DNA from: an uncultured Olsenella sp.
Lineage (GTDB): Bacteria > Actinomycetota > Coriobacteriia > Coriobacteriales > Atopobiaceae
Reading direction: 5' to 3'
DNA: 58,800 nucleotides
Assembly (NCBI GenBank): GCA_900314495.1
Contig: OMVJ01000020.1
Coordinates: forward strand, 1-58,800
Shown here: in pieces, positions 23,303 through 51,608 of the stretch
Position numbering within the stretch: the first letter of the stretch is position 1
Layout of the letters: every line of letters begins with the position of its first letter
Made by a program: the position numbers and the translations under genes
Notes under the pieces: generated by a model
What the model saw: only the letters and a program-made list of their open reading frames with translations
The model's database searches: none
What the model was told of the DNA's origin: nothing

Positions 23303-23319
23303 TGGAAGGCTCTATGAAT

Positions 23320-23347: not shown

Positions 23348-23359
23348 CTTGTGGTGCCG

Positions 23360-24937: not shown

Positions 24938-24957
24938 ATGCGAGAACGATTCCACAT
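24938..24957 (-). promoter_or_regulatory. ScrR-type operator 2 (upstream of GH32 (4))
   Basis: ATGCGAGAACGATTCCACAT, a 20-bp LacI-type quasi-palindrome with central CG. Read on the minus strand it is followed directly by CATATCAT, a likely -10 box (TATCAT), so a bound repressor would cover the promoter. The block 24932-24955 is almost identical to 28929-28952. Confidence 0.82.
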
Positions 24958-25015
24958 CCCGCCAGTGCGCGGCGAGCGGCATACGCGCATGGCGAGCGGC
25001 GCACGTGTCAGCCGT

Positions 25016-25142
25016 GTGTCAGGGGGACGTTTCCCGTTTGACACAGAGGGGGCGCGCCGGAGGGGAAACCTCCCCCCTCCCAGCGCGCCCCCATCACCCA
25101 ACAAAAGGGGTATGACAAAAGGGAAACGTCCCCCTTTGACAC
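25016..25142. repeat. nested palindromes with GGGGACG cores, family A-like (copy 3)
   Basis: Unit 1 (25016-25044) runs from GTGTCAGGGGGACGTTTCCC to TTTGACAC; unit 2 (25112-25142) runs from ATGACAAAAGGGAAACGTCC to TTTGACAC. The two are inverted copies of each other. Between them GGGGGCGCGC (25049-25058) pairs with GCGCGCCCCC-like sequence near 25083-25092, enclosing a GGAGGGG/CCCCTCC hairpin. It ends 1 base before the stop codon of the HAD gene and resembles the other TGAGAC/TGACAC-bounded elements. Confidence 0.8.
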
Positions 25143-25143
25143 G

Positions 25144-26043
25144 TTAGAGCTTATAGTAGGTGCCCTCGCAGGCGGCCTCGAGCCACTTGGCAACGCCGTC
25201 GTCCCAAATGGAATCAACGATGCAGTCCGCAACCTTCTTGACCTCCGCAGAGGCGTTGTCCACGGCAACGAAGGTACCCACGGCGGGACGCATGGGCAGG
25301 TCGTTGCCAGAGTCGCCAAAGGCAACCAGCTGGTCCTTCTGCAGGCCCAGGTGCCTCATCACCCACTCCACGCCGGAGCCCTTCTCCACGCCCATGATGG
25401 TGATCTCGATCTCTGTGGGTGTGACGACGGCAATCTGCAGGTCGCCCCGGGCCTTGAGCTCTGCCACATCGCGCTCAAGGTCTTCGTGGGTGTTGAAGCA
25501 GGCGCCCATCTTCTCCACGAAGTTGGTCGCATCGTCCACGGCCTCAAGCTGGGGTGTGATGTCCTTCACCGTGAACTTGTTGGGCTGGCTGGTGATCTCC
25601 TCCGTCAGCGCCTCGTCGGTCAGGCGGTCGCTGTTCTCAACGCGGTGCACGGCCTGAGTCATGTAGCTCACCAGCCGGTCCTCGAAGTAGGCACCCGTGG
25701 AGGTCAGGCAGTTCAGGCCCGCGCCGCGCCCGTGCAGCCAGGCGGCAAGCTCCAGCGCCATGCTGCGGGGAATGGCCTTGCTCAGCAGGTGGTTGCCCTC
25801 CGCGTCCAGAATCTGGCCACCGTTGACGGTGATGTAGTAGTCAATGAAGTCGTCCTTCACCACATCGGGCACGATGGGCAGGTTGCGGCCGGTGCACACG
25901 ACGTTGGCCATGCCGTCCTCGTGCGCCTTCCTCATGGCGGCAATGGTGCGCGGAGAGACGTAGTCCAAGTTGAGGATGGTGCCGTCCAAGTCGTAGAAGC
26001 CGGCGCCTATGCCATGCGGGAACTGCTCGTTTGCAGGAAGCAT
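25144..26043 (-). CDS. HAD-superfamily hydrolase (Cof type)
   Basis: 299 residues. Phosphatase of the Cof/YbiV subfamily: motif I FYDLDGTI (nucleophile Asp18, acid Asp20), a C2-type cap, and motif IV FGDSGNDLPM with Mg-binding Asp residues; Lys in MGVEKGSGVEWV. It follows sucrose phosphorylase by 12 bases on the minus strand, so it is the third gene of the GH32-phosphorylase operon and may dephosphorylate a sugar phosphate formed there. Substrate range in this family is broad. Its 3' end abuts the repeat at 25016-25142. Confidence 0.9.
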   Translation of the reverse strand: MLPANEQFPHGIGAGFYDLDGTILNLDYVSPRTIAAMRKAHEDGMANVVCTGRNLPIVPDVVKDDFIDYYITVNGGQILDAEGNHLLSKAIPRSMALELAAWLHGRGAGLNCLTSTGAYFEDRLVSYMTQAVHRVENSDRLTDEALTEEITSQPNKFTVKDITPQLEAVDDATNFVEKMGACFNTHEDLERDVAELKARGDLQIAVVTPTEIEITIMGVEKGSGVEWVMRHLGLQKDQLVAFGDSGNDLPMRPAVGTFVAVDNASAEVKKVADCIVDSIWDDGVAKWLEAACEGTYYKL

Positions 26044-26055
26044 GCGCTTACCTCC

Positions 26056-27477
26056 CTAGGAGTGGGTGATGGTGTAGTCGTGCGTGGCCAGGTTGGCGTC
26101 CAGCTGCGCCCAGGCGTCGCCCGCGGTACGGCGGATGGTGAAGGCGCCACCCTCGCCGCAGGTGACCTCCATGTTGCCCTCGATGTCGAAGGCGGGGTGA
26201 GCGTTGCGCAGCTCCATCATGCTCACCAGCTCCTGCACCACCGGGCGCTCCACCTCCGTGGCAATCTCGTCCAGCGAGTAGTAGTGGCGGTTGATGTTCC
26301 GCCCCTCCTTGGTGGCCTCCAGCAGCTTGAGGTCGTTGGCACCGGCAAGAAGGCCCACGTAGTAGACCATGGGGACGCCGGGGGCAAAGAACTGGATGGC
26401 GCGCGCCAGGTCGTAGGCCTTGTCGTCGTTGCCCAGGGCGGAGTAGTAGGTGGTGTTCACCTGGTAGATGTCCAGGTTGTTGTAGGCCTCGGTGTTGTAG
26501 ATCTTCTTCACGTTGGCGCCCTCGGAGAACATCTTCTCCTTGGTCCAGTCAACCTGGTCGTCGGGCAGGAGGTCCTTCACGTCCACGATGCCCAAGCCGT
26601 CGTGGGTGTCCAACGTGGTGAACTGGTGCTTGGGGCTCATCTCCAGCCAGCGCTTGAGGTACTGGCCGTCACCGGAATAGAGGGCGTGCAGGGTCAGGAC
26701 GGGCAGGGCGAAGTCGTACACCCAGTAACCCATCTGCGAGACCTTCATCTGCATGGTGTAGTGCTCGTGAATCTCCGGCAGGACCATGACGTCCTTGCCC
26801 AGCACGTCCTGCATGGCGTTGAGCAGGTCGGAGGTGTCGGGCTGCTCGAAGAAGCAGGAGCCGCCCGCGCGCTTGCAGGCGTATGCGAAGGCGTCCAGGC
26901 GGATGATGGCGGCGTTGTTGGCCGCCATGTTGGTGAGCGTCTCCTTAAAGAACTGCTGGGCGCGGGCGCTCTTGACGTTGATGTCAATCTGCTCCTCGCC
27001 GAAGGTGCACCACACCTTCTCGGTGGTGCCGTCGGCAAACTGGGCCTCCACGTAGGGCGCGCGGGGCTTGCGCTTGTAAATGGCGTCCACCTGCTCCGGC
27101 GTGGGGAAGCCGCCCTCCGCCGCCCAGAAGTCCTTGTAGCGAATGAAGAAGTCCGCGAACTCGCTATTGTCCTTCTTGGCCAGGAAGTCCTGGAAGTAGG
27201 GGGACTGGCGCGAGATGTGGTTGATCATGAAGTCGAACATGAGGTAGCGCTTCTCGCCAATGCGACGCACGTCATCCCAGGTGCCGAAGGCGGGGTCAAC
27301 TATGTCGTAGCGCATGGGGGCGAAGCCGCGGTCGGCAGAGCTGGGGAAGAAGGGCAGGATGTGCACGCCGCCGATGGCGTCCTTGAAGTACGTGTCCAGC
27401 ACGTGGTCAAGGTCAGCCAGGTTCTTGCCCAGGCTGTCGGCGTAGGTGATGAGCATGATCTTGTTGTTGACCTTCAT
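26056..27477 (-). CDS. sucrose phosphorylase (GH13_18)
   Basis: 473 residues from the ATG at 27477 (GGAGAG 4 bases upstream). Phosphorolyses sucrose to alpha-glucose 1-phosphate and fructose in the cytoplasm. Seen: SSADRGFAPMRYDIVDPAFG near residue 46, nucleophile Asp195 in IIRLDAFAYA, acid/base Glu235 in VLPEIHEHY, and Asp290 in LDTHDGLGIVDV; these positions agree well with characterised enzymes. YYVGLLAGANDLKLLEATKE is family-typical. Sucrose 6'-phosphate phosphorylase and glucosylglycerate phosphorylase are close relatives in the same subfamily and are not excluded; a PTS nearby makes the phosphate-specific option worth considering. Second gene of a three-gene minus-strand operon. Confidence 0.88.
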   Translation of the reverse strand: MKVNNKIMLITYADSLGKNLADLDHVLDTYFKDAIGGVHILPFFPSSADRGFAPMRYDIVDPAFGTWDDVRRIGEKRYLMFDFMINHISRQSPYFQDFLAKKDNSEFADFFIRYKDFWAAEGGFPTPEQVDAIYKRKPRAPYVEAQFADGTTEKVWCTFGEEQIDINVKSARAQQFFKETLTNMAANNAAIIRLDAFAYACKRAGGSCFFEQPDTSDLLNAMQDVLGKDVMVLPEIHEHYTMQMKVSQMGYWVYDFALPVLTLHALYSGDGQYLKRWLEMSPKHQFTTLDTHDGLGIVDVKDLLPDDQVDWTKEKMFSEGANVKKIYNTEAYNNLDIYQVNTTYYSALGNDDKAYDLARAIQFFAPGVPMVYYVGLLAGANDLKLLEATKEGRNINRHYYSLDEIATEVERPVVQELVSMMELRNAHPAFDIEGNMEVTCGEGGAFTIRRTAGDAWAQLDANLATHDYTITHS

Positions 27478-27530
27478 GAACTCTCCTTTCCTGCGGGATA
27501 GCCCTCTTGGCGCTCCCAGCGAATGTGAGG

Positions 27531-28835
27531 CTACAGGCCAAGCACCGCAATCTCGGCGTTGGCGTCGGTCTTGAACCAACCACCCAGGTCGTACACGATG
27601 TTCGAGACCACGTATTGACCGTCGTTTATGTACATCTCCACCAAGTGGCCGTGAACCAGGATCTCAACCTTGTTGGTGTCCCCCACCTCGGGCGTCACGG
27701 AGTGCACGTGCTCGTAGCCGGGGTGCACCCTGTAGACCCTGGACCTGTCCACATGAATCTGGTGGCCCTCCTGCCAAATGTGCAGGCCGCCCACGTTTAT
27801 GTGGTTGCCCTCAGACAGGTTGGTCGCAAACAGGTAGGGCCGGTGCGTGGTGGTTGCCAGGTTGTTGTGCACGAGCGCGTAGCGCACGTTGGGGTGCAGG
27901 TTGGTGTACACGTGGCCGTCGTGCACCTCCACCACGCGCGGGGCGCAGAACATGCCAATCCACCTGTCGTTCACGGGCTCGGGCATGCGCATCCAGCCAA
28001 TCATGACGCGGCGGCCTGCCTCGTCCGTGGTGGTTTGGGCGGCATAGAAGTCGTGGCCGTAGTCCACAAGTCGCGGCTCGCTTTGCAGCTGCAGGTCACA
28101 GTTGGCCTCGTCAAAGCTGCCGGTGAAGCAGACCGACTCGTCGCGGCCCTGGCCCATGTAGTCCATCATGGACGCAAGCAGCACGGTTTCGCCGGTGTCC
28201 ACCGTGAACAGGTCCGGGCACTCACACATCCAGCCATAGCTGGGGTCCAGCAGGGTGCGGTTGACGTACTCCCAGTTCACGAGGTCATAGCTCTTGTAGA
28301 AGAGCACCTCGCCCTGCTTGCGGTCGATGTTGCTGCCCAAAGACATGTACCAGGCGTTGTGACCGTGCCAGACCTTGGGGTCGCGCGTGTGCACGCGGTC
28401 TCCCAGCGCGGGGTCGTCTAAGGGCGGGATGATCACGGACTTGTCCGCAAAGTTGTCGAAGGTGCACCCGTCCGGAGAGCTCACCGTCAGCTGGGCCGAG
28501 GTCAGGTGGTCGGGAATGCACTTGTTGATGTTGGTGGGATCCACCTCGTCGTAGTGGACGCCGGTATAGAAGAGGCGCAGCTGGCCGCCAATCTCCACCG
28601 CGCTGCCCGAGAAGCAACCGTTCTGGTCCTCCGGCAGTGTGGGGAAGAGGGCTATTTCCTGCTGCTCCCAGTTGACCAAGTCCTTGCTGGTGGCGTGGCC
28701 CCAGCAGATGGTGCCCCACTCGGGCGCATAGGGAAAGTACTGGTAGAAGAGGTGATACTCGCCTTTGTAGTAGATGAAGCCGTTGGGGTCATTCATCCAA
28801 CCCTTGGTAATGTGGAAGTGGACGCTGCGTGCCAT
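27531..28835 (-). CDS. GH32 fructosidase (5), short form
   Basis: 434 residues, shorter than the other four copies. Triad: GWMNDPNG with Asp16, HTRDPKVW with Asp152, MCECPD with Glu205 (Trp of the usual WECP replaced by Cys). The sequence is distant from the other four enzymes and closer to bacterial exo-inulinase/levanase-type GH32 (WGTICWGHATSKDLVNW). No signal peptide. AGAGGAC precedes the start. It heads an operon with sucrose phosphorylase (53-base gap) and a HAD phosphatase, under ScrR-type operator 3 at 28935-28954. Confidence 0.9.
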   Translation of the reverse strand: MARSVHFHITKGWMNDPNGFIYYKGEYHLFYQYFPYAPEWGTICWGHATSKDLVNWEQQEIALFPTLPEDQNGCFSGSAVEIGGQLRLFYTGVHYDEVDPTNINKCIPDHLTSAQLTVSSPDGCTFDNFADKSVIIPPLDDPALGDRVHTRDPKVWHGHNAWYMSLGSNIDRKQGEVLFYKSYDLVNWEYVNRTLLDPSYGWMCECPDLFTVDTGETVLLASMMDYMGQGRDESVCFTGSFDEANCDLQLQSEPRLVDYGHDFYAAQTTTDEAGRRVMIGWMRMPEPVNDRWIGMFCAPRVVEVHDGHVYTNLHPNVRYALVHNNLATTTHRPYLFATNLSEGNHINVGGLHIWQEGHQIHVDRSRVYRVHPGYEHVHSVTPEVGDTNKVEILVHGHLVEMYINDGQYVVSNIVYDLGGWFKTDANAEIAVLGL

Positions 28836-38919: not shown

Positions 38920-40071
38920 CTACGCCCGCTTCAGCGACTCCTCCGCCTGGCGCAGAACGGAACAGGCCTCACCGCCAGCTGCGCCTGCACGCAGCAGCGC
39001 ATCCCCGCTCGACTGCCCCGCCTGCCAGCCAGCGTGGTCGCCGCGGCTGACCACCACCTGGTAGCCCACGCTGGCGCAGCGGCGGGCCATGCACAGGCGG
39101 CACTCCGCCGCCTCGTCCCCGGTGCAGGTCTTGCCGTCGTACAGCAGGTACTTGCTGCGCACGTCACGCGGCGAGAGGTTGGGCATCACCACGTTTGCGC
39201 CCGCAAGCAAGCCCAGCTCGCGGCCGCGCGGGTTGATGGTGCCCAGCGCCGTCGTGGCAGGCAGCAGCACGTCTGGCAGCATGAGGCGAATCACAGCCAG
39301 TAGGTGCAGGGTGTCATCCAGCGTGCCCGCCGGCTTGTCGCGGAAGGGCGTGTCCTTGTGCGGGATGAAGGGACCTATGCCCACCATGTCCGGCTGGAAG
39401 TCCGCCATCCACAGCAGGTCCTCCACCACGAAGTCCCAGGTCTGGTAGGGCGTGCCCACCATGATGCCGCAACCCACCTGGTAGCCAATGTCCTTCAGGT
39501 CACGCAGGCACCGCTTGCGGTTCTGGATGCTCAGCTCCGCGGGGTGCAGCTTGCCGTAGTGCCAGGGGTTGGAGGTCTCCTGCCGCAGCAGGTAGCGCTC
39601 GGCGCCGGCGGCAAAGTAGGCCTCGTAGCTGGCACGGGGTTTCTCGCCAATGGAGAGGGTCACGGCGCAGTCCGGATGCGCGGCGCGTATGCCGCTCACA
39701 ATGCTGCAGATGTCGTCGTCGGAGTAGGTCAGGTCCTCCCCGCTCTGCAGCACGAAGGTGCGAAAGTCCAGCTCGTAGCCGGCGTCGCAGCACTCCAGAA
39801 TCTGCTGCTTGCTCAGGCGGTAGCGCTGGGCGTTGCCGTTGCTGCGACGCAACCCGCAGTACAGGCAGTCGTTGCGGCAGTAGCTGGAAAACTCGATAAG
39901 CCCGCGCAGGTAGACCTCGCGCCCGTAGTGCTCCTCCCGCACCTCGCGCGCCTGTGCGTACAGGAGCTCCGCCTCCTCCGGCGTCATGGTCGCCAGCAGG
40001 CCCACCAGCTCCTCCGCGGGCAGGGTCCTCTCCGAACGAAGGCGCACGATGCGCCGGCCGTTTGCCGTCAT
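38920..40071 (-). CDS. hydE: HydE-type radical SAM enzyme
   Basis: 383 residues. Radical SAM core with Cys65, Cys69, Cys72 (SYCRNDCLYCGLRRSN), the HydE lead-in RGLIEFSSYC, and ILECCDAGYELDFRTFVLQS. The second cluster motif CX7CX2C is present (Cys316, Cys324, Cys327), as in Thermotoga HydE. HydE acts on the cysteine-linked Fe(CO)2(CN) unit in [FeFe] hydrogenase cofactor assembly. Here HydF, HydG and HydA are absent and the gene is the last of the nitrogenase-like/Hyp operon, overlapping the NifK-like gene by 4 bases. So its substrate is probably a related Fe-CN/CO intermediate. A close homologue such as PylB is less likely because of the second cluster. Confidence 0.87.
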   Translation of the reverse strand: MTANGRRIVRLRSERTLPAEELVGLLATMTPEEAELLYAQAREVREEHYGREVYLRGLIEFSSYCRNDCLYCGLRRSNGNAQRYRLSKQQILECCDAGYELDFRTFVLQSGEDLTYSDDDICSIVSGIRAAHPDCAVTLSIGEKPRASYEAYFAAGAERYLLRQETSNPWHYGKLHPAELSIQNRKRCLRDLKDIGYQVGCGIMVGTPYQTWDFVVEDLLWMADFQPDMVGIGPFIPHKDTPFRDKPAGTLDDTLHLLAVIRLMLPDVLLPATTALGTINPRGRELGLLAGANVVMPNLSPRDVRSKYLLYDGKTCTGDEAAECRLCMARRCASVGYQVVVSRGDHAGWQAGQSSGDALLRAGAAGGEACSVLRQAEESLKRA

Positions 40072-41270
40072 CGCTGGCCTCCCTCGCGAAGCAGCTCCGC
40101 CGGCCGCAGCCGCACCAGGTCAGGAACCTCGCGCAGCCACTGGCGGCCCGAATAGGCAAAGTGCGGCAGGCGAACGAACCGCTGGCCAGCACACACGAAT
40201 TGCAGGAAGGGGTCCCCCACCACGGTGCTCGCACCCGCAATGGCCCTCACGATGCCCTCCTCGCCACGCACGCAAGTGTCGCCCAAGCGGTCGTTCACCA
40301 GCGCGTCCGTTTCCTCTAAGGGGCTGACGACGCGAGCACGGACACCCGCCACCGCCAATGCTGCCGCAACGGAACCCATCTGCACCGGCTCGCCCACCAA
40401 GGCAACCTCGGCACTGGCCGCATCTGCAGCCTCCGTACCCAAGGCCTCCGCACGTGTGTCCTGGTAGGCCAGCCGACAGACGCCGTCCTCGCACGAGCGC
40501 GCAAGCGCCCGCTGCAACCCCGCGGAGAAGCCCTCCATGGGCACGCCCACCACGTAGGGCGTCCCGAACCGCTGGCGCAGCGCCCGCGCCGCGCGAAGCC
40601 CCGTTGCGGACACGACCAGGTTGGCATCCGCACACGCCGCGGCACGAACGGATTCCAGCCCGTCCCCCATCGCCCAGCAAGACACCACCGAGAAGCCCAG
40701 CATCCTCAGCCACGTGCGCACCGAGTCTGGGTCCGTGCCAGCGAAGTCAAGCGGGGTCATGCCCAGCACGTTGACCCTGCGGCCGGCGGCACCGTGCAGC
40801 TTGGTGCAATCCGCCGCATCGGGCTCGCGCACCTGGTGCTCAGCCAGCATCTGGAAGGCAAGACCCGCGCCGCGCACGTAGTCGTGCATGCCGTTGGTGG
40901 CCACTTGGTAGGTGGGGACGCCCGTCTGGGCCTGCACCTCGCGCGCGATGGCCGCGAAGTCCCGCCCCACCTGGTAGGGAATGGGCGAGCACACAAGGGT
41001 CACGAAGGCGGGGTGGGTCTCGCGCACCGCGGCAACAACGTCTCGCACGAGCTTCTCGTCGTCGCCCATGATGGCGTCCACGTCGCGCAGGCCGCTGATG
41101 AAGATGAGGCTGTCCTGGTCGTACCAGCGGGTCTCGTCGTGGGTGTTGTAGGTGGAGTTGCAGCCGGAGGGGTCGTCTATGACGGTCATGCCGCCCAGCT
41201 CGAAGAGGGCCGACGCGACGCCCGAGACGTCACCCGCGTACACGGGAAGCACCCCGTATGCCTGTCTCAT
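40068..41270 (-). CDS. NifK/NifN-like oxidoreductase subunit (set A)
   Basis: 400 residues, nitrogenase component 1 type oxidoreductase fold. Cys37 (DPSGCNSTYN) and Cys94 (TLVCSPIPYQVGRD) fall where component 1 proteins hold the cluster between subunits. Its sequence aligns with the C-terminal half of the fused protein at 48325-50826: GLRDVDAIMGDDEKLVRD against GLRDMDAIMGRDDLLVRK. Cys94 has no counterpart there. No cofactor His/Cys pair of nitrogenase MoFe protein is recognised. It starts 12 bases after the set A NifD-like gene, with which it probably forms a heterotetramer. Reaction unknown. Confidence 0.83.
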   Translation of the reverse strand: MRQAYGVLPVYAGDVSGVASALFELGGMTVIDDPSGCNSTYNTHDETRWYDQDSLIFISGLRDVDAIMGDDEKLVRDVVAAVRETHPAFVTLVCSPIPYQVGRDFAAIAREVQAQTGVPTYQVATNGMHDYVRGAGLAFQMLAEHQVREPDAADCTKLHGAAGRRVNVLGMTPLDFAGTDPDSVRTWLRMLGFSVVSCWAMGDGLESVRAAACADANLVVSATGLRAARALRQRFGTPYVVGVPMEGFSAGLQRALARSCEDGVCRLAYQDTRAEALGTEAADAASAEVALVGEPVQMGSVAAALAVAGVRARVVSPLEETDALVNDRLGDTCVRGEEGIVRAIAGASTVVGDPFLQFVCAGQRFVRLPHFAYSGRQWLREVPDLVRLRPAELLREGGQR

Positions 41271-41282
41271 GTCACTTCCCTC

Positions 41283-42635
41283 CTAGCGCGGCAGCTGGCA
41301 GACGCACGGCATGCCCAGCCCCTTGCGCGGAACCAGCTCGCGCGCGTCCTTGCGATTTGCCCACGCGTCACGCATGAGGCGCACAAGCCCGCGTATGGCG
41401 GAGTAGCCCCACATGCCGTCAGTCTCGATGATGTTGGCGAAGTGGCTGGTGCCGCAGAACCAGGCCGCCTTGGGGCCAACGGCCAGCCAGGCGTCTCCGC
41501 CGTCGCGCGGCACCTGCCGCAGGGTGGGGTGGATGGTGCTCCAGAGCTCCAGGTCCGGCGCGTTGGCGCGCAGCCACTCCAGAGCCCCCTCCTCCTCCGG
41601 GCTAACCACGTCCAGGTACACCCGCCGCACGTCCAGCCCGTGCTCCAGCAGCAGCTGCGCAAGCTCCAACGGGTGGTTGACGGCCAGGTAGTCAATGGCA
41701 ATGGGCACGCCGGCCAGGTCCCTGGCAAGCGAGCGCAGCAGCTCGTCCGCCTCCGCGCGCGCCTGCGCAGTGTCCGGGCAAGGGACTCCCAACGCGTCGG
41801 CGAAGCGCGCGAGGCCCTCGTCTATGCCCTGGTAGCTCAGAGCCGGCGGCAGGTAGAGCCCGGTGCGGCCCATTCGCCTGCACATCTTCTGCAGGCCCCA
41901 GTCCGCAAAGAGCGTGCGCGTCACGAACAAGCGTGCCGCGCCCAGGCCCAGGTACTCGTCGTAGCTGGCGCAGTCGTGCAGCTGCCGCACGCGGAAGCCG
42001 TTCTGGGCGGCAAGGCGGGCCAGGTCGGAGTCGCCGGGCAGGCGCAGGTCATCGGAGACCACGGCAACCAGGCGCGGGTCCTCCGCCAGCGGCTGAATGG
42101 GGTCCAGCATGGCCTTGCGCTCCTTCTGCTCCGGCGTTATGCCCGTCTTCTGCATGATGGGGTCCATCCAGCAGCGCATGAAGAAGATGTCCGGGAAGCG
42201 GCGCTCAAGCTCGCGGTACACGTAGCCCACGTCCGTGCCCACAAAGTGGTGCAGGCACACCAGGAACACCATGACCACGCGGGGCCGGTAGGGCAGCTTG
42301 TTGATGGCGTCAGTCACACCCTCTATGGTCACGGTCTCAAGGTTGTCCTGGTACAGGTCCGCCTCCTCAATGGCCACGCTCGAGAAGCGCTGGCTCGCGC
42401 CCATCTCCGCCGCGGTGAGGATGACGCCGCGCAGGCAGTTGTCCGCGCACACGTATACCTGGTGCGCCTCCGGCACCAGCATGCCCGTATGCACGATGTT
42501 CCAGTTGCCGTGCACGGGCGCGTTGAACTCCAGGGCGTTGGGAATGGGCCGCGGGAAGCTTGCGTCCGCCGCCCGCACGAAGGCCGGCGAGGCGTCAACG
42601 GACCGCAGGTCATCGGGGCTGACACGGGTCAGCAT
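41283..42635 (-). CDS. NifD/NifE-like oxidoreductase subunit (set A)
   Basis: 450 residues from the ATG at 42635, which has GGGAGG 8 bases upstream and overlaps the preceding NifH-like stop by 7 bases. Component 1 fold. Candidate cluster ligands: Cys63 and Cys67 ([10 protein letters not shown]) and Cys127 ([10 protein letters not shown]); Cys155 (FFMRCWMDP) is also near. It aligns with the N-terminal half of the fused protein at 48325: [19 protein letters not shown] against RPSVVMVCITCVDALLGTD. The partner is the set A NifK-like protein; its reductase is the NifH-like protein encoded just before it. Similar in size to DPOR or F430-pathway subunits but not closely matching either. Confidence 0.83.
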
Positions 42636-43417
42636 GCCGGGACCTCCCCCGCGGGCACCGCGGCACCAAAGCCGCAGCGCCTCTCTATGGAGTCCGCCAG
42701 CGCGCGGTAGGCCTCCGCCATGGCGGAGTCCGGTGCCGCCTCCATGAGGGTCAGGCCGCCTTCCTCTGCGTCCGTCACCAGGCTGCTGTGCGGCAGCGCG
42801 CCAACGATGTCGCAACCCAGGTCGCCCGCAAGCTCGCGCACCTTGGCCTCCTCGTCGCGAACGTCGCGGCGGTTGAGGACCAGGCCTCCCATCTGCGCGT
42901 AGCCCCGCTTCTGGAAGTTCTGCACCGCCACGCCTATGTTGGCCGCCGCATGGATGGACATGTTCTCCCCGCTGGTCACCACCAGCACGTAGTTGGCGTA
43001 GCCCTCGCGCATGGGCACGGCGAAGCCGCCGCACACCACGTCACCCAGCACGTCGAAGAGTACGACGTCCGGCTGGTAGCGCTCGTAGACGCCCTTCTGC
43101 TCCAGCGTCTCCAGCGCGGTGATGATGCCGCGGCCGGCACAGCCCAGGCCCGGCAGCGGGCCGCCGGCCTCCGCGCAGAGCACCCCGGCAAAGCCCTGGC
43201 ACACCACGTCGTCCAAGCCGAAGGGCCGGCCAGACCGCACGCTGTCCATGACCGTGGGCAGCTCACGGCCGTGGCGCAGCAGGATGGTGGAGTCCGCCTT
43301 GGGGTCACAGCCAACCTGCAGCACGCGGTGGCCACGCTCCGCCCATATGACGGCCAGGTTGGACACCGTGGTGGACTTGCCAATGCCGCCCTTGCCGTAG
43401 AACGCCAGCTTTATCAT
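42629..43417 (-). CDS. NifH-like iron protein (set A)
   Basis: 262 residues from the ATG at 43417 (GGGGAGGAG upstream). A NifH/BchL/CfbC-type ATPase that donates electrons through a subunit-bridging [4Fe-4S] cluster. Seen: Walker [19 protein letters not shown], cluster ligands Cys93 (GLGCAGRG) and Cys129 (GDVVCGG), and Arg96, the position ADP-ribosylated in NifH. All functional residues are in place, so it should be an active reductase. It sits between hypE (34-base gap) and the set A NifD-like gene (overlap), so it likely serves that complex. Confidence 0.92.
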
Positions 43418-43452
43418 GTCTCTCCTCCCCGCCGCTCCGGGTAACCCACGGG

Positions 43453-44457
43453 CTAGCAGATCCTGGGCAGCAGCTCGTTTCCAGGCTCGGGCAGGATGGT
43501 GCGGGTGCCGATCTCCGTCCGCATGACCACGCGACCGCGCGCCTCGTCCGTGACGCGGCCAATGACAACGGCGCCCTCCGTGTGGGGGCTGGCATGCAGC
43601 GCCTGCAGCACCGCGTCCGCTTCCTCCGCGGGGCAGACGATCACCAGCCGGCCCTCGCAGGCCAGGTACAGGGGCTCCAGGCCCAGCATGCCGCACACGC
43701 CAGCCACCTCCGGGGCAACGGGGACCGCCGTCGCGTCCAGCTCTATGCCCACGCCGCTCTGGTGGGCAATCTCGTACAGCACGGTGCCCACGCCACCGCG
43801 CGTGGCGTCGCGAATGGTGTGGATGTCGGTCGCCGCGGCAAGCGCGGCACGGATGGCGGCCGCCAGGGGCGCGCAGTCGCTGGTAACGTCCGCCTCTATG
43901 CCGTACTCGTCGCGCGCGAGCAGGATGGCGCAGCCATGCCGTCCCACGTCGCCCGTCACGATGATGGCGTCGCCGGGCCGCGCGTCCGCGCCGGAGGTCT
44001 TCACTCCCTCGTACACGCGGCCGATGCCCGTGGTGGTGATGAAGACGCCGTCCACCTGCCCCTTGCCGGCCACCTTGGTGTCACCCGCAACGATGCGCAC
44101 GCCGGCCTCGGCCGCGGTCTTCTCCATGGCGGAGGCAATCTGCTCCAGCCGCTCCATGGGGAAGCCCTCCTCTATGACGAAGCTGCAGGTAAGGTAGAGG
44201 GGCTCCGCGCCCATGCAGGCAACGTCGTTCACGGTGCCGCAGATGGAGAGCTTGCCCACGTTGCCGCCGGGGAAGAAGGCGGGCGAGACGATGAACCCGT
44301 CCGTGGAGACGGCGATCCTGCCAGCCGGCACCTCCAGCACGGCGGCGTCGTCCGCCGTGAGGTCCGGGTTGGCAAAGTGCGCCTTGAAGATGCGGTCTAT
44401 GAGCTCCGATGTCTGCTTCCCGCCCGCACCGTGCGCGAGCGTCACAATGTCCTTCAT
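43453..44457 (-). CDS. hypE: HypE, carbamoyl dehydratase (Fe-cyanide synthesis)
   Basis: 334 residues from the ATG at 44457 (GAGGAAG upstream). HypE converts the carbamoyl group placed by HypF on its C-terminal cysteine into thiocyanate, the source of the CN ligands. Seen: [13 protein letters not shown] (N-terminal PurM-like ATP-binding region), [29 protein letters not shown], and the C-terminal PRIC with the essential Cys as the last residue. So the enzyme looks functional. It lies between hypD and the set A NifH-like gene. Confidence 0.95.
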
Positions 44458-44541
44458 GCTCTTCCTCACTGGGCCACGGGGCCCCTTGAACCCTTGCCAC
44501 AACCGGTTCCGCGCATCCCGCGAGCCCGGCCGCCGCAAGCC

Positions 44542-45591
44542 TTAGATGTCACCGCCATACAGGTAGAACGCCGAGCAGGCCCCCTCGCTGGAGACCATGC
44601 ACGCGCCAACGGGGTGCTCCGGCGTGCAGGCCCTGCCGAACAGGGGGCAGTCCCCCGGCTTGCAGGCTCCCTGAAGCACTTGGCCGCACCGGCACGCGCG
44701 GTTCTCGCGCCCCTCTATGGGCTCCAGGCCGTGCTTGGAGCGGGCGTCGTAGGCGGCGTACTCCTCGCGCAGCCGCATGCCGGATTGCGGAATGACGCCG
44801 ATGCCGCGCCAGCGGGAGTCGCACGGCTCCATCATCTGGGCGACCAGGCGCTGTGCGCTGGGCGAGCCCTCCGGCCTCACCACGCGCGGGTAGCAGTTTA
44901 CGAAGAAGGGCTTGCCCTCCTGGAACTTGGTCACGGCCACCGCAAGGGCGGTCACCAACTCGCGGGCCGTGAAGCCGGCCACCACGCCGCTCACGCCCTG
45001 GGCCACCAGGTCCTCGCAGGCCTTGGTGCCGGCAATGGCGCAGACGTGGCCGGGGTACAGGAAGGCGTCGCACGAGTCCTTCATGGCCTCGTAGGCGCCG
45101 GGCATGGTCTTGTTCGCCGTGAGGATGCTGAAGTTCCCCACGCCGTGCTCCTGCGCCGTGCGCACGGCAATGCAGCTGGAGGGCGTGGTCGTCTCGAACC
45201 CCACGGAGAGGAAGACCACGTCCTCCTGCGGGTGACGCTCCGCGTACGCCTCGCCGTCCTGCGGCGAGTACACCACCTGCACCTTGGCGCCGCGCGCACG
45301 GGCATCCTGCAGTGACATGGTGGAGCCGGGAACGCGCACAAGGTCGCCGAAGGTGGTTATGGTGCAGCCATGGTCCAGCGCCAGCGCTATGGCCTCGTCT
45401 ATGTAGCCCACGGGGGTCACGCATACCGGGCACCCCGGGCCGGAGATGAGCTCCACCGCAGGCGGCAGTATGCGCCGGATGCCCTGGCGGAAGATCTCGT
45501 GCGTGTGGGTGCCGCACACCTCCATGATGCGCACGTGCGGCCCGTCGTAGCCCTCCAGGATCTGGCGGGCGCTCTTGGTCTGCCGGGTCAT
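44542..45591 (-). CDS. hypD: HypD, Fe(CN)2CO assembly scaffold
   Basis: 349 residues. Fe-S protein that with HypC holds the iron while CN and CO ligands are attached. Seen: MEVCGTHTHEI, GPGCPVCVTPVGYI, GFETTTP, GHVCAIAG, and the C-terminal cluster motif with CRCGQVL, CKPGDCPLFG and GACMVSSEGAC. All key cysteines are present. Its ATG overlaps the hypC stop by one base (TAATG), so HypC and HypD are made together, as their complex requires. Confidence 0.96.
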   Translation of the reverse strand: MTRQTKSARQILEGYDGPHVRIMEVCGTHTHEIFRQGIRRILPPAVELISGPGCPVCVTPVGYIDEAIALALDHGCTITTFGDLVRVPGSTMSLQDARARGAKVQVVYSPQDGEAYAERHPQEDVVFLSVGFETTTPSSCIAVRTAQEHGVGNFSILTANKTMPGAYEAMKDSCDAFLYPGHVCAIAGTKACEDLVAQGVSGVVAGFTARELVTALAVAVTKFQEGKPFFVNCYPRVVRPEGSPSAQRLVAQMMEPCDSRWRGIGVIPQSGMRLREEYAAYDARSKHGLEPIEGRENRACRCGQVLQGACKPGDCPLFGRACTPEHPVGACMVSSEGACSAFYLYGGDI

Positions 45592-45803
45592 TACAGGAAC
45601 TCCTCCACCAAGCCGTCGGTCTCGTCCTCGTCGTCGTCCGTGATGCGGGCGATGGCAGAGCCCGCGTGCACCATGACGAAGTCGCCGGGCTCCAAGTCGT
45701 CCAGCAGCTCCGCGGAGACCTGCCTCCGAGCACCCGTCGCCTCCACAACGGCCGTGCCGTCGTCCTGCACCCTAATGACCCGAGCGGCCAATCCTACGCA
45801 CAT
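45591..45803 (-). CDS. hypC: HypC/HybG chaperone
   Basis: 70 residues. Starts MCVGLAARV with the essential Cys2 exposed after removal of Met, then the OB-like beta barrel (VEATGARRQVSAELLDDLEP, GDFVMVHAGSAIARI). The acidic tail DDDEDETDGLVEEFL is somewhat longer than usual. In [NiFe] systems HypC shuttles the Fe(CN)2CO unit from HypD to the hydrogenase large subunit; here no such subunit is visible and the acceptor is unknown. Confidence 0.94.
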   Translation of the reverse strand: MCVGLAARVIRVQDDGTAVVEATGARRQVSAELLDDLEPGDFVMVHAGSAIARITDDDEDETDGLVEEFL

Positions 45804-45879
45804 GTGGTTCCCCCAATCGCACCGGGAGACTCGCGCCTCCCGAGAAGTTCAATCGCATACCAGTCTCGCGCTGGCCGGC

Positions 45880-48324
45880 TCAGCCGTCCGTGCGATTTCC
45901 AACACCTTCCGGTGCCTCGCCAGCCCCCTTGCCGGCGCCCGGCACCCTTCCGTCCAGCACCCGCTGCGCGGCCACCACGGCCTGGCCCAGGGCGATGCCC
46001 CCGTCGTTGGGAGGCACCAGGCCGTGCGTCAGCACCACGAGACCGCCCTCCTCCAAGTATCGCTTGGTCAGGCCCAAAAGCAACGTGTTCTGGAAGCAGC
46101 CGCCGCTCAGCGCAACCGTGTCCAGGCCGCACTCGCCGCAGGCAACCGCGCATGCCGCGGCAACCTGGCGCGCCATGGCATCGTGGAAGGCGTAGGCAAG
46201 CGCAGCCGCGTCCTCGCCCGCGAGCCTGCGGTCCACGAGCCAGCCGAACAGCTCGTCCGTGGGCAGCTCCAGCTGGCCGTCGGGACCGCGCCGGGGCTCC
46301 ACGGCGCGCGGTGGCAGGGCGGCCCCCGCCCCACCGGCCTCCGCATGCGCCTCCGCCGCGTACTGCAGCGCGCACGAGGCCTCGCCCTCGAAGGTGGACT
46401 CGCGGCGTATGCCCAGGATGGCGCTGGCCGCGTCGAAGAGCCTGCCCGCGCTGGTGGAGGTGACGGCGTTGAGCTTCCTCTCCGCCATCATTACCTGGGC
46501 GCGCGCCGTGCGCTCGTCCGTAAGGCCCAGCGCGGCCACCACGTCCAGGGTGTCCCCAAGGCTCCCCTGCAAGCCGTGCACCAGCACCGTTGCCACGCGC
46601 CAGCCCTCGCGCGAGGCGCGGTCGCCGCCCACCTGCGTGAACGGCACCACGTGGCCCACGCGCCGAAAGCCGTGGTAGTCGCAGACCATGAGCTCCCCAC
46701 CCCAGACGGTGCCGTCCGTTCCGTAGCCCGTTCCGTCGAACGAGACGCCCAGCACCCGCCCCGGGTGGTCGTTCTCCGCCATGCAGGAGACGACGTGCGC
46801 GTAGTGGTGCTGCACCTCCACGAGGGGCAGGCCGGCCTCCCGGGCGATCTTCTCCGCCACGGCGCGGGAGTTGTAACGCGGGTGCAGGTCCGCCGCGACA
46901 ACGGCGGGAGCGGCCTCCAGCAGGCACTCCATGCGCTCCACGGACTCCTCCAACGCGCGAACGCTCCGCAGGTCAGACAGGTCGCCCACGTAGGCGGAGG
47001 GGTACATGAGCTCGCCCTTGCCCACGCAGAAGCAGTTCTTGAGCTCGCCGCCCACGGCCAGGACGGGAAGCTCCTCCCCCAGGCCCGAGACCACCACGGG
47101 CAGGGGCGCATAGCCACGCGAGCGGCGAATCATGTACGGCTGGCCCTGGAAGAAGTCCATGACGGAGTCGTCCGCGCGCGTGAGGATGGGCCTGTCGTTG
47201 GAGAGTACCAGGTCCGCCAGGCCGGCAAGCTCGCTGGCCGCGGACTCGTCGTCGCGGCAGATGGGAGCGCCGGAGACGTTGCCGCTGGTCATGACCAGGC
47301 AGTCCGGCATGGTCACGCCGTCGTCGTAGCGGAAGAGCAGCAGCTGTATGGGCGCGTAGGGCAGCATGACGCCCACGCGCGGGTTGCCCGGCGCCACGGA
47401 GGGGGCAAGGCAGGAGCCCGTGCGGCGCGACATTAGAACGATGGGCTTCTGGTGGCCCGTCAGCACCTCCTGGCGCGCTGGGTCCAGCTGGCACTCGCGC
47501 CGTGCCACCTCCTCGTTGGCCATCATGACGGCGAAGGGCTTCTGAGGCCGGCGCTTGCGCTCCCGCAGCAGGGCAACAGCGGCCTCGTTGGTGGCGTCGC
47601 AGCACAGGTGGAAGCCGCCAATGCCCTTCACCGCAACTATGCCGCCGCCCGCGATGCACCTGCGCGCGGCCGTTATGGCGTCGCGGCCCCGTTCCGGCCG
47701 GCCGAGCAGGTACACGCTTGGCCCGCAGTCGTTGCAGCACACGGGCTGGGCATCGTAGCGGCGGCTTGCCGGGTCGTGATACTCGTTCGAGCATTCCGGG
47801 CACATGGGGAACTTGCCCATGCTGGTGCGCTCCCGGTCGTATGGCAGGGAACGCAGGATGGTCAGGCGCGGCCCGCAGCAAGTGCAGTTTATGAAGGGGT
47901 GCAGGTACCTGCGGTTCGTTGGGTCGAAGAGCTCCCGCTTGCAGTCGTCGCAGATGGCGATGTCCGGCGAGACGAAGATCGCGCCACGGGTGTGCTCGCT
48001 CTCCTTGATGGCGAAGCCGTCGTACGCGCCTGCCTCGGCAGCCGGCACGTCCGCAACCTCGACCTTTATGACGTCGGCCCGCCTGGGCGGTTGCGTGCGC
48101 ACCAGGTGGCAGAAGTCATCCAGCTGACGGGGCGTGCCTTGGGCGAAAATCTCCACGTAGGGGCCCTTGTTGCAGACGGTGCCCGCAACGCCCGCCCGGG
48201 CGGCGTGCCGCGCGATGGTGGGGCGCATGCCCACGCCCTGCACAATGCCGTAGCAGCGCAGCCGCTTGGTCACCACCCCACGCTCGTGGCGCGGGATTCC
48301 GCCTGTCACTTCACGCACCGCCAT
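45880..48324 (-). CDS. hypF: HypF carbamoyltransferase
   Basis: 814 residues, slightly longer than usual at both ends. It makes carbamoyl-adenylate from carbamoyl phosphate and transfers the carbamoyl to HypE. Domains in order: acylphosphatase (RLRCYGIVQGVGMRPTIARH, about 22-105), double zinc finger (CDDCKRELFD, CTCCGPR, CPECSNEYHD, CCNDCGP), YrdC-like domain (about 210-400, VAVKGIGGFHLCCDA), and the Kae1-like catalytic domain with VQHHYAHVVSC and ALSGGCFQNTLL. The C-terminal Gly/Ala-rich tail is nonconserved. The ATG follows directly after the stop of the fused NifDK-like gene, showing cotranscription. Confidence 0.95.
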   Translation of the reverse strand: MAVREVTGGIPRHERGVVTKRLRCYGIVQGVGMRPTIARHAARAGVAGTVCNKGPYVEIFAQGTPRQLDDFCHLVRTQPPRRADVIKVEVADVPAAEAGAYDGFAIKESEHTRGAIFVSPDIAICDDCKRELFDPTNRRYLHPFINCTCCGPRLTILRSLPYDRERTSMGKFPMCPECSNEYHDPASRRYDAQPVCCNDCGPSVYLLGRPERGRDAITAARRCIAGGGIVAVKGIGGFHLCCDATNEAAVALLRERKRRPQKPFAVMMANEEVARRECQLDPARQEVLTGHQKPIVLMSRRTGSCLAPSVAPGNPRVGVMLPYAPIQLLLFRYDDGVTMPDCLVMTSGNVSGAPICRDDESAASELAGLADLVLSNDRPILTRADDSVMDFFQGQPYMIRRSRGYAPLPVVVSGLGEELPVLAVGGELKNCFCVGKGELMYPSAYVGDLSDLRSVRALEESVERMECLLEAAPAVVAADLHPRYNSRAVAEKIAREAGLPLVEVQHHYAHVVSCMAENDHPGRVLGVSFDGTGYGTDGTVWGGELMVCDYHGFRRVGHVVPFTQVGGDRASREGWRVATVLVHGLQGSLGDTLDVVAALGLTDERTARAQVMMAERKLNAVTSTSAGRLFDAASAILGIRRESTFEGEASCALQYAAEAHAEAGGAGAALPPRAVEPRRGPDGQLELPTDELFGWLVDRRLAGEDAAALAYAFHDAMARQVAAACAVACGECGLDTVALSGGCFQNTLLLGLTKRYLEEGGLVVLTHGLVPPNDGGIALGQAVVAAQRVLDGRVPGAGKGAGEAPEGVGNRTDG

Positions 48325-50826
48325 CTAGAACCTCACCAGGTGTCCGGAAAGCGCAAAGTGCGTCTCGTCGTACCAAGTGCCCCGGAAGTCCGGCACCAGC
48401 TTTCGCAGCACCGCGTCGGCAAGGATCACGTCTGGTGCCACGTCCGACACGGCGCGCACGAAGTCCCCCTCGGACCGCAGGCGCACGTCCTCCTGCCGCG
48501 TGACCTCCTCCGGCTGGCAGAAGAAGCTCGCCGCCACAACGTGGGCTGCGCCGCGCCCCAGCAGCTCGCGCCGGATTGCGTCTGCGGCAACCTGCTGGTG
48601 CACCACCAGCACGCACCGGCCCATCCACTCGTTCTGCGGCACAAGCCTCTCCGCCAGCGGAAAGCCGATGTCGTACGGCGTACCGAAGCGCTTCTGCAGC
48701 CACTTGGCCGCGGCAAGGCCGGAGGGGGCCACCACCAGGTTGCGCTCCGCCGCACCCGCCGTGCGAACGTCTTCCAGAGTCGCGCCCATGCCGAAGCACG
48801 TGACGTGCCTCCAACCCCGCTCCCCCAGCCTGGCAGCCAGCAACCCACCCGCGGAGGGGTCCGAAACGTCCATGGGCGTGCTGCCAAGCACGCCAATGCG
48901 CCCCTGCTCAGGGGTGGTGTCCTTCTCTGCGAACGAGGTCACCAGCGCCAGGTAGGCCTTCTCGGCGCCAGAGTCGTACAGGCGCATGCCGTCGGTGTCC
49001 ACGCTGATCACCGGAAGCCCGCAGCCGCGCTCCGCCAAGCGGCGCAGGGCGTGCAGGTCCGTGCCGATGACGGAGGGCACCGGCGTGCCGATGAGCGCCG
49101 CAAAGCTGGCATCCACCTTGCGCGCCGCGTCGGACAGCTTGCGCACCAAGAGGTCGTCCCGGCCCATGATGGCGTCCATGTCGCGCAGGCCCGCGCTGAA
49201 GACGGCGTCGCGGTTGGCAAACCAGCGCGGCTCGTCAAAGCCGCAGATGTTGCCCACGCAGCCGCCCGCGTCTATGACCACGGAGATTCCGCCCATGCCA
49301 TACAGCACGGAGACGGCACCGGACTGGTCCGGCGCGAAGGGGGTGAGCACACGCCGCAGGCCGCGCACCTCCTCCGCCGGGCGCAGGGCGCAGGAGGAAT
49401 GCGGAGCGGGGACCGGCCGGGGCCCGGACAGGTGCGAGAGGGACTCCGTCCCCCGGGCGCGTTCGCTCCTCAGCGAGACGGCGCCCTCCACCCCCGCGCG
49501 ACCACCGGCAGAGGCTCCCGCGGCCACGTCCCCCAGCGCAAGGAAGAGGTCGCGGACGGCGCGGTAGCCAAAGGGCTGAACGTCGCTGTTCCAAGCCAGG
49601 TTGGGGCACTCCGGGTGGTAGTAGCCGGCGTCGCGGCCAATGGTCAGCGTGACGCCCGTCCCCGCCGGGCTGTAGTCGATCATGCTGGGCTCCAGGTTGG
49701 AGTACACCATGGTCTGCGGGGAAAGCTCTGCCAGCTTCCGCAGGTACACGAAGTGGTCCGCCGAGACGGTGCAGAAGACCTCCGCCACCCGGAAGCCGTA
49801 GCGCACCAGCGCCAGCGCCAGCTCCAGCGGGTTCGAATTGGACCCCTCGCCAACGGCAAATACCTCGCCTGCGTGCGCCGCCCGGAACGCACGCATGGCC
49901 GCGGCTGCCTCCTCGCGGAAGGCCTCCTGCTCAAAGCTCGTTCCCAGCACCGATGCCAGGGCCTCGTACTGCCTGTGGATGCGGTCCACCTCGTAGAAGC
50001 GGTGCAGCTCGATCCACGGCATGCCCAGGCGCTCCTGCAGGTCCTGCGCCGCGGGCCCCGCCTCCGGGTTCAGCACCAGGTTGAAGTTGGCCTGGGCCAT
50101 GCGTTGGAAATCCTCGTAGTCGGCCGCGGTTGAGATTTCCCGCACGTGGCGAACGCCGGCCTGGCCCAGAAGCTCGCGCAGCTCCGACCCCGCATCCACC
50201 GGAGCGAAGTAGCCCAGCAGGTTGCACGCCCTGCGGTCGCGCTCGGCAGGTTCCAGCAGCGAGTACAGAGACTGGCGCACGTTCACCATGGGCGGCTTGC
50301 GGCCCTCGCGCGTGAGGGCGTACATGTAGCACGGCCGCACTCGCACCCCGGCAAGCTTCTCCGCCGCGCGGCACACGCGCTCCATGTCAGTCCCCAGCAG
50401 GGCGTCCACGCAGGTTATGCACACCATCACCACGGACGGCCGCGTGGGCAGGCTGTCGCACACGGCCTTCACGGCCTTGGGAATGCGCTTCAGGTGGCGG
50501 GCGGTAATCAGGTCCGTCTCGCTCATCTCAAGGTAGAAGAAGCGGTTCTCATACCCGGGCAGCTCCGAGATGGAGCTGGTGTTGCGCCCGCAGCAGCCCG
50601 GGGAGACCACCAGCATGACCGAGCCCGGCACTGCCAGGCCGGCGCGCTTTACACCGAAGCCCTCCGCTCCCGGCGAGTTGAAGGCCAGCGCGGCGGGTGA
50701 GCTGTATATGAGGTGCGTGTTGGAGACGAGCTCCGGCGGAATGTCCTGCGGCCCGCGCGCGGCAAGCTCCGCCACGGTATAGCCGAAGGCACGCCGTCCG
50801 GCAACGGGGTGCGCTATGGCCTGCAT
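48325..50826 (-). CDS. fused NifD-NifK-like oxidoreductase (set B)
   Basis: 833 residues, two nitrogenase component 1 domains in one chain. The N-terminal half (about 1-430) has Cys78/Cys79 (SPGCCGRN), Cys136/Cys139 (VCITC) and LEMSETDLITA, a NifD/NifE-like segment. A Gly/Ala/Pro/Ser-rich linker (about 432-495) joins the C-terminal half (about 496-833) with Cys523 and Cys528 (AGGCVGNICGFDE). The position equivalent to Cys94 of the set A NifK-like protein is Gly580 (ALIGTPVPSVIGTD). The ATG overlaps the stop of the set B NifH-like gene (TGATG). The two halves equal the separate set A subunits, so the protein should act as a homodimer with a four-domain core. Reaction unknown. Confidence 0.85.
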   Translation of the reverse strand: MQAIAHPVAGRRAFGYTVAELAARGPQDIPPELVSNTHLIYSSPAALAFNSPGAEGFGVKRAGLAVPGSVMLVVSPGCCGRNTSSISELPGYENRFFYLEMSETDLITARHLKRIPKAVKAVCDSLPTRPSVVMVCITCVDALLGTDMERVCRAAEKLAGVRVRPCYMYALTREGRKPPMVNVRQSLYSLLEPAERDRRACNLLGYFAPVDAGSELRELLGQAGVRHVREISTAADYEDFQRMAQANFNLVLNPEAGPAAQDLQERLGMPWIELHRFYEVDRIHRQYEALASVLGTSFEQEAFREEAAAAMRAFRAAHAGEVFAVGEGSNSNPLELALALVRYGFRVAEVFCTVSADHFVYLRKLAELSPQTMVYSNLEPSMIDYSPAGTGVTLTIGRDAGYYHPECPNLAWNSDVQPFGYRAVRDLFLALGDVAAGASAGGRAGVEGAVSLRSERARGTESLSHLSGPRPVPAPHSSCALRPAEEVRGLRRVLTPFAPDQSGAVSVLYGMGGISVVIDAGGCVGNICGFDEPRWFANRDAVFSAGLRDMDAIMGRDDLLVRKLSDAARKVDASFAALIGTPVPSVIGTDLHALRRLAERGCGLPVISVDTDGMRLYDSGAEKAYLALVTSFAEKDTTPEQGRIGVLGSTPMDVSDPSAGGLLAARLGERGWRHVTCFGMGATLEDVRTAGAAERNLVVAPSGLAAAKWLQKRFGTPYDIGFPLAERLVPQNEWMGRCVLVVHQQVAADAIRRELLGRGAAHVVAASFFCQPEEVTRQEDVRLRSEGDFVRAVSDVAPDVILADAVLRKLVPDFRGTWYDETHFALSGHLVRF

Positions 50827-51608
50827 CAGGCATCCGCCCCCGTCGCGGCCTGAGCCGCATCCTCTTCCAGCAGGCGCTGGGCCAGGTCCAGGAACACGTG
50901 CGAGATGGGCAGGCTGGCGTCTCCCTCTATGACGGTCTTGCCCTCGTCCTCAAAGCGGTTGATGTCGTCTGACCGTGGGATGTCACCAACAATGCGCAGG
51001 TTGGAGGCATCGGCGAAGGCCCGGACCTTCTCCAGCTCCCCAGGCACGTTGCGGCGGTTCAGGATGATGCCGCCCACCTCCGCGTAGCCACGGTCCTCGA
51101 AGTTGCGAACCGCGGTTGCAATGTTGTTGGCCGCGTAGAGGGCCATCTTCTCCCCGCTGGTCACAATGAGCACGCGCTTGGCGTAGCCCTCGCGAATGGG
51201 CGCGGCGAAGCCGCCGCACACCACGTCACCCAGCACGTCGTACAGGACGACGTCGGGCCGGTAGGTCTCGAACAGCTTCAGGTCCTCCAGCAGGCCGAAC
51301 GTGGCGATGATGCCGCGGCCGGCGCAGCCCAGGCCCGGCGTGGGGCCGCCCGTCTCTATGCAGAGGACGCCGCCAAAGCCCACCTTGGAGATCTGCTCTA
51401 TGGACTCCGGGTCCTCGTCCTCCTGGCGCAGGTAGTCCATGACGGGGCGCAGGGGCTGGCCTCCCAGCAGGTTTATGGTGGAGTCGGCCTTGGGGTCGCA
51501 GCCAATTTGGATCACGCGCTTGCCCAGCGCCGCAAAGGCGGCCGAGAGGTTGCTTGTGATGGTGGACTTGCCGATTCCCCCCTTGCCATACACCGCAATC
51601 TTGAGCAT
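50826..51608 (-). CDS. NifH-like iron protein (set B)
   Basis: 260 residues from the ATG at 51608. NifH-type ATPase with Walker [19 protein letters not shown], Cys95 (GLGCAGRG), Arg98 and Cys131 (GDVVCGG). It is clearly related to, but distinct from, the set A protein at 42629, and closer to nitrogenase NifH in the [11 protein letters not shown] segment. First gene of the ten-gene operon and translationally coupled to the fused NifDK-like gene. GGGGG lies about 8 bases before the start. Confidence 0.92.

Follow-up and report, generated by a model that had tools for sequence, protein, structure and literature searches.

A hypCDEF operon with two nitrogenase-like systems and hydE, a probable replacement for HydG in [FeFe]-hydrogenase maturation

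The DNA considered here, called the window below, is one entire contig of 58,800 nucleotides (OMVJ01000020.1, assembly GCA_900314495.1) from an uncultured bacterium of gut type whose nearest named relatives are Olsenella species and whose genome (2.80 Mb, 65 contigs) is 99% complete. Ten co-directional genes at 38920-51608 on the reverse strand form one operon, with the 5' to 3' order nifH1, a fused nifD-nifK1, hypF, hypC, hypD, hypE, nifH2, nifD2, nifK2 and hydE. The genes hypFCDE thus occupy the middle, the nitrogenase-like genes are found on both flanks, hydE comes last, and at several of the junctions the neighbouring genes overlap or abut. Judging from the sequence evidence, we consider it likely, with a probability of about 0.7, that this operon is a module that replaces HydG in the assembly of the H-cluster of [FeFe]-hydrogenases. 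Synteny and co-occurrence tie the cassette to HydE, to HydF and to the absence of HydG. The replacement is probable because the block is found in hundreds of genomes, and these usually lack HydG.

The proposal brings together parts of two maturation pathways. In [NiFe]-hydrogenase systems, HypE and HypF make cyanide from carbamoyl phosphate, and HypC and HypD hold an iron with CN- and CO; this unit normally has two CN- and one CO, while the substrate of HydE has one CN- and two CO. Maturation of [FeFe]-hydrogenases by the HydEFG system relies on the tyrosine lyase HydG, together with HydE, HydF and the aminomethyl-lipoyl H-protein. In the established route, HydG is described as the maker of CO, CN- and the Fe(CO)2(CN) synthon, in the form of [Fe(Cys)(CN)(CO)2]-; HydE reduces and dimerises this product, and HydF completes the dithiomethylamine-bridged cluster before passing it to HydA (PMC12752695).

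Conservation of the cassette and its link to HydE, HydF and missing HydG

A genome scan confirmed 421 relatives by tblastn, and our statements on gene order rest on 80 loci kept from that scan. The cassette is carried by Olsenella and other Atopobiaceae, by Lachnospiraceae and Oscillospiraceae, and by Clostridium acetogens, with Anaerobutyricum hallii, Acetitomaculum ruminis, C. ljungdahlii, C. carboxidivorans and C. drakei among the named carriers. The order seen most frequently is nifH1-nifDK1-hypF-hypC-hypD-hypE-(nifH2)-nifD2-nifK2, and hydF-hydE often come next; some loci are rearranged. This order is conserved in two phyla, and the window has it with hydF relocated. All ten genes were not seen at every one of the 80 loci, because many contigs end early and because in some carriers the second nitrogenase-like set is seemingly located elsewhere or absent. 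Of 121 genomes from the window's own family, 35 have HypD and 36 have a relative of the fused protein or of its paralogue; 35 genomes have both (p = 1e-29).

The association with the maturases was followed in 45 genomes of the family, made up of 35 cassette carriers and 10 non-carriers. HydF above its cut-off was found in 34 of the 35 carriers versus none of the 10 non-carriers, and the figures for HydE, detected by way of its cross-match with the HydG model, were 33/35 versus 0/10. HydG itself was above its cut-off in none of the 45 genomes, carriers and non-carriers alike. The window's own genome has its HydF on another contig (G000:C12:13817-15019; 561 bits, cut-off 326), and the search of this genome for HydG returned only the cross-match to HydE, at 58 bits versus a cut-off of 312. 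It also encodes two [FeFe]-hydrogenases with H-cluster motifs, one of group A on contig C48 (475 bits, cut-off 406; motifs TSCCPGW, MPCTAKK and EVMACPGGC) and one of group B1 on contig C44 (602 bits, cut-off 450).

HydG is likewise missing from 24 of the 26 named carrier genomes. In the Lachnospiraceae, the family of A. hallii, the cassette and HydG were compared over 248 genomes, and a genome was counted as a carrier when it had a match of more than 400 bits to the NifD half of the fused protein. HydG was found in 0/23 carriers versus 111/225 non-carriers (Fisher p = 5.6e-7, a value that overstates the independence of the genomes because they share kinship). The complementary picture comes from 20 HydG loci that were read, of which 13 have HydE nearby and 16 have HydF; the sole sign of a cassette gene around HydG in these loci is one HypF-like match. 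The placement of HydG beside HydE and HydF where cassette genes are lacking suggests that HydG and the cassette fill the same genomic role.

The HydE encoded in the operon scores far above the TIGR03956 cut-off, has the CX3CX2C motif at C65, C69 and C72, and finds its best match in the PDB in the HydE of T. maritima (E = 1.5e-87). Cassette HydE and HydG-partnered HydE have the same residue at 99 of the 99 positions conserved in both, and there is no position that is conserved but different. We considered a specialised variant of HydE and rejected it, since no conserved position is altered and the HydE tree gives no supported split of the two groups. Since HydE is unchanged and HydF retained, it is simplest to suppose that the cassette yields the product of HydG by a different route.

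Several observations weigh against a HydG-replacing cassette. Two carriers have a genuine HydG as well, C. drakei (G126, locus L148) at 948 bits and C. thailandense (G124, locus L144) at 683 bits, which indicates that the two routes can coexist. C. autoethanogenum has been assigned a putative HydG with an unusual motif (PMC9431212); our HydG test covered its close relative C. ljungdahlii, in which no HydG was found. The comparison in the Lachnospiraceae covered the cassette and HydG only. Cassette-free relatives in the family retain HydA with HydE, HydF and HydG all below their cut-offs (L099, L100, G002, G003, G005, G015, G017, G020 and G024), and the motifs are intact in the group A protein of G002, so the presence of HydA alone proves no maturation by the cassette. 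There is also a chemical mismatch between the Fe(CN)2CO of HypCD and the Fe(CO)2(CN) that HydE uses, and a conversion step must therefore be assumed.

The alternative that survives best, which we nevertheless regard as unlikely, is that the cassette builds a new Fe(CN)x(CO)y cofactor for one of its own nitrogenase-like proteins, D1K1 or D2K2, as the final enzyme. HydE would then act on that cofactor, and HydF and HydA would be linked to the cassette only via the shared HydE. Two nitrogenase-like systems are indeed a heavy investment for a single maturation step; D1, which is by far the better conserved, has invariant loops that might form an active site, and the relatives just mentioned keep HydA without the cassette or any maturase. 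However, HydF accompanies the cassette in nearly every family carrier and is often located inside it, the presence of the cassette usually means the absence of HydG, and the conserved residues of HydE are unaltered. These features argue for the replacement of HydG rather than for a separate cofactor.

The nitrogenase-like proteins

Both NifH-like proteins have the features of NifH-type Fe proteins, with the P-loop KGGIGKST and two cluster cysteines, which are C95 and C131 in NifH1 (invariant in 99 orthologs) and C93 and C129 in NifH2 (invariant). The closest solved structures to NifH1 are nitrogenase Fe proteins. The D1 half of the fused protein has C78, C79, C136 and C139, and the K1 half has C523, all of them invariant or almost invariant in some 97-99 orthologs; C67 and C127 of D2 are invariant, and C37 of K2 is conserved at 96%. 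Cysteines in this pattern could hold an iron-sulfur cluster where the subunits meet, like those of NifEN and DPOR. In the AlphaFold models, D1K1 (predicted local distance difference test score, pLDDT, 85.5) shows the nitrogenase component-1 fold in both halves, and D2 (pLDDT 87.6) the nitrogenase/DPOR fold (Z 22). The Oxidored_nitro domain and the component-1 fold together place these proteins in the nitrogenase superfamily, and in sequence D1 comes nearest to the cofactor scaffold NifE.

The component-1 fold, for which DPOR, NifEN and related structures are the nearest, could also mean that these genes encode an ordinary nitrogenase, a tetrapyrrole reductase or a methylthio-alkane reductase that sits beside hyp and hydE by chance, but we find this very improbable. 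No cassette protein reached the NCBIfam equivalog cut-offs for nifD, nifK or nifH, nor those for BchL, BchN or BchB of DPOR; the CfbC cut-off of 402 was missed at 298 and 293 bits, and CfbD was at 26 bits versus 268. The near-perfect overlap of HypD and the nitrogenase-like genes over the 121 family genomes also speaks against a chance neighbourhood, as does the presence in the same genome of a separate nitrogenase-like operon beside an O-acetylhomoserine sulfhydrylase. An ordinary nitrogenase or tetrapyrrole reductase was thus ruled out by the family cut-offs and the fixed hyp and hydE context.

That third nitrogenase-like operon is found outside the window (contig G000:C17, locus L113:3346-9116). 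It consists of NifD-like, NifK-like and NifX-like genes, a NifH gene at 450 bits, above the nifH cut-off, and the O-acetylhomoserine sulfhydrylase-like gene, and it resembles the neighbourhood of methylthio-alkane reductase.

The HypCDEF set and the nickel side

An earlier note, made from the sequence alone, had described a complete HypCDEF set with intact catalytic residues, and this description is borne out; it made no mention of the nitrogenase-like genes on either flank or of hydE at the end. All four proteins exceed their curated NCBIfam cut-offs (Table 1), and the conservation of their residues was judged across 83-89 orthologs. The Cys2 of HypC is intact and invariant in 89 orthologs. 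In HypD, the iron and [4Fe-4S] cysteines (C26, C54, C57, C300, C302, C315, C322, C331 and C339) are intact and invariant. HypE ends in the C-terminal PRIC (...LLPRIC), with Cys334 invariant in 85 orthologs, and HypF has all of its domains: the zinc fingers with invariant cysteines, the acylphosphatase and the carbamoyltransferase. The residues that HypCDEF needs for the synthesis of Fe(CN)2CO are therefore present.

The same note had described the set as lacking HypA/HypB, hydrogenase subunits and the protease, and for HypA, HypB and the [NiFe] large subunit this absence extends to the whole genome. No [NiFe] large subunit was found in its 65 contigs, although the positive controls were. No HypA was above the cut-off there, with only a 21-bit fragment match inside an 811-residue frame (cut-off 28.9), nor was any HypB, the best match being a probably UreG-like protein at 86 bits versus 121. 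A [NiFe] hydrogenase with hypA and hypB elsewhere in this genome and no other Hyp set, which the note had named as evidence to the contrary, was not found. Ordinary [NiFe] maturation was ruled out by the missing large subunit, HypA and HypB. The [NiFe] large subunit is also absent from all 45 family genomes, with the controls positive, though 35 of them have HypD.

C. carboxidivorans offers a direct comparison, for it has a second HypCDE set that adjoins its [NiFe] hydrogenase, HypA and HypB. Its cassette HypD is 68% identical to the HypD of the window, which comes from another phylum, and 45% identical to the HypD of its own [NiFe] operon, indicating that the cassette and [NiFe]-linked Hyp proteins belong to separate lineages. 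A fully supported branch of the tree has the cassette HypDs of the two phyla together on one side; the comparison included just two [NiFe]-linked sequences. [NiFe]-hydrogenase maturation is the only known setting of HypCDEF, and the acetogens of the C. ljungdahlii type do have a group 1a [NiFe] hydrogenase as well (PMC9431212), but the idea that HypCDEF here works for a [NiFe]-type hydrogenase that escaped detection, or is a relic, and has coincidental neighbours is scarcely credible and largely refuted by the lack of the large subunit in the family, the gene order held across two phyla, the distinct HypD lineages within one genome and the invariance of all the catalytic cysteines.

The note had also concluded that the Fe(CN)2CO unit goes to a nickel-free target and had suggested a new acceptor. 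The nickel-free target is well supported by the lack of a [NiFe] hydrogenase, HypA and HypB and by the separate HypCDE lineage. A new acceptor is not required, since the ties to HydE and HydF and the missing HydG indicate a known one, the H-cluster of [FeFe]-hydrogenase. Nor is it established that intact Fe(CN)2CO is the unit handed on; HydE, being unchanged, probably still receives a synthon of the Fe(CO)2(CN) type.

On the nickel side, HypA and HypB are present in many family genomes without a [NiFe] hydrogenase (G006, G049, G070 and others). HypA was considered as a co-evolving part of the cassette and rejected, since it is found in cassette-positive and cassette-negative family genomes alike. 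The window also encodes a LarA-like lactate racemase (12871-14139, forward strand), of a family that uses a nickel-pincer cofactor, and with such a protein the organism may still use nickel.

A possible route to the H-cluster

If the cassette does replace HydG, HypF and HypE would make cyanide from carbamoyl phosphate, and an iron with CN- and CO would be assembled on HypC-HypD. The two nitrogenase-like systems, NifH1 with D1K1 and NifH2 with D2-K2, would then use ATP to deliver low-potential electrons for completing the synthon; most likely they would supply the extra CO or swap one CN- for CO. A precedent for the supply of CO exists, as nitrogenase Fe proteins can reduce CO2 to CO. The Hyp-made unit would be handed over to HydE, which would give the di-iron precursor, and this would pass as usual to HydF, encoded on another contig here, and on to HydA. 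We offer this conversion of HypCD-made Fe(CN)2CO, or of CO2, into the Fe(CO)2(CN) synthon as a tentative proposal, with odds slightly below even. It would merge the cofactor pathways of nickel hydrogenases, nitrogenases and [FeFe]-hydrogenases, with no need for tyrosine or HydG.

Feature positions and other genes of the window

Table 1. Genes of the operon in transcription order, with window positions and family matches (aa, amino acids; E, E-value).
Feature	Position	Strand	Family match
NifH-like ATP-dependent reductase 1 (NifH1), 260 aa, first gene of the operon	50826-51608	-	Fer4_NifH E 5e-86
Fused NifD-NifK-like protein D1K1, 833 aa	48325-50826	-	Oxidored_nitro E 6e-57, two stretches
HypF carbamoyltransferase	45880-48324	-	TIGR00143 689 bits, cut-off 466
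HypC	45591-45803	-	TIGR00074 53 bits, cut-off 48; PF01455 E 8e-20
HypD scaffold	44542-45591	-	TIGR00075 369 bits, cut-off 193; PF01924 E 4e-131
HypE	43453-44457	-	TIGR02124 420 bits, cut-off 252
NifH-like ATP-dependent reductase 2 (NifH2), 262 aa	42629-43417	-	Fer4_NifH E 6e-84
NifD-like protein 2 (D2), 450 aa, strongly diverged	41283-42635	-	Oxidored_nitro E 3e-7
NifK-like protein 2 (K2), 400 aa	40068-41270	-	Oxidored_nitro E 2e-23
HydE, [FeFe]-hydrogenase H-cluster radical S-adenosylmethionine maturase, last gene of the operon	38920-40071	-	TIGR03956 547 bits, cut-off 255

Elsewhere the window holds a glycyl radical enzyme of the pyruvate formate-lyase type (3978-6278, reverse strand; PF02901 E 2e-189) and, at 15751-28835, what appears by eye to be a sucrose/fructan utilisation cluster with a LacI-type regulator, a phosphotransferase system (PTS) transporter, a fructokinase and three GH32-like enzymes.

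Significance and comparison with known systems

HydG is regarded as the supplier of the CO and CN- ligands of the H-cluster, and a widespread HydG-free route, if true, changes this picture. It would explain how gas-fermenting acetogens of the C. ljungdahlii type have [FeFe]-hydrogenases but no hydG, and hypCDEF but no hypAB, and nitrogenase-like enzymes would gain a new function. Gut Lachnospiraceae, Olsenella and industrial acetogens are among the carriers, which gives the cassette a bearing on hydrogen metabolism in the gut and on gas fermentation, and the idea can be put to the test in genetically tractable strains. Our literature text searches found no description of the cassette; preprints and most subscription papers were outside their scope, so an earlier account may exist.

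The acetogens had in part been described before. Di Leonardo et al. (2022) list several Clostridium acetogens in which HydG is missing although HydE and HydF are present, and HypA/HypB are missing although HypCDEF is present; the former holds for C. ljungdahlii and C. carboxidivorans, the latter for C. ljungdahlii (PMC9431212). For the missing hydG the authors state that there is no straightforward explanation, and in the text as far as read the two absences are left unconnected and the nitrogenase-like genes are not discussed (PMC9431212). One cassette accounts for both. C. autoethanogenum, for its part, has an NADP-specific bifurcating [FeFe]-hydrogenase complex (PMC9004356, citing Wang 2013). 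Its hypCDEF genes are CLAU_RS01730-01745 (Table 4 of PMC9431212), with nifHDK-like genes as neighbours, while its hydE is CLAU_RS08145 and its hydF CLAU_RS10040.

Compared with the known systems, the cassette resembles each in part. Like the HydEFG system, it comes with canonical HydE and HydF and with HydA proteins that have H-cluster motifs in the same genome, but HydG is absent and apparently replaced by HypCDEF and the two nitrogenase-like systems. With the HypABCDEF system of [NiFe] maturation it shares HypC, HypD, HypE and HypF with all their catalytic cysteines; it differs in that the genome lacks HypA, HypB and a large subunit, that its HypD is of a separate lineage, and that the operon is shared with nitrogenase-like genes and hydE. 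With NifEN, DPOR, CfbCD and methylthio-alkane reductase it has in common a NifH-type ATPase, the component-1 fold and cysteines that could bind an interface cluster; NifE is the best sequence match, and D1K1 is fused as in the NifEN of Geobacter. Unlike NifEN and the other nitrogenase-like reductases, however, the cassette proteins fall below all curated cut-offs, have the cysteine pattern C78/C79/C136/C139/C523, and are found with hypCDEF alongside in nearly all of the loci read whose length allows these genes to be seen.

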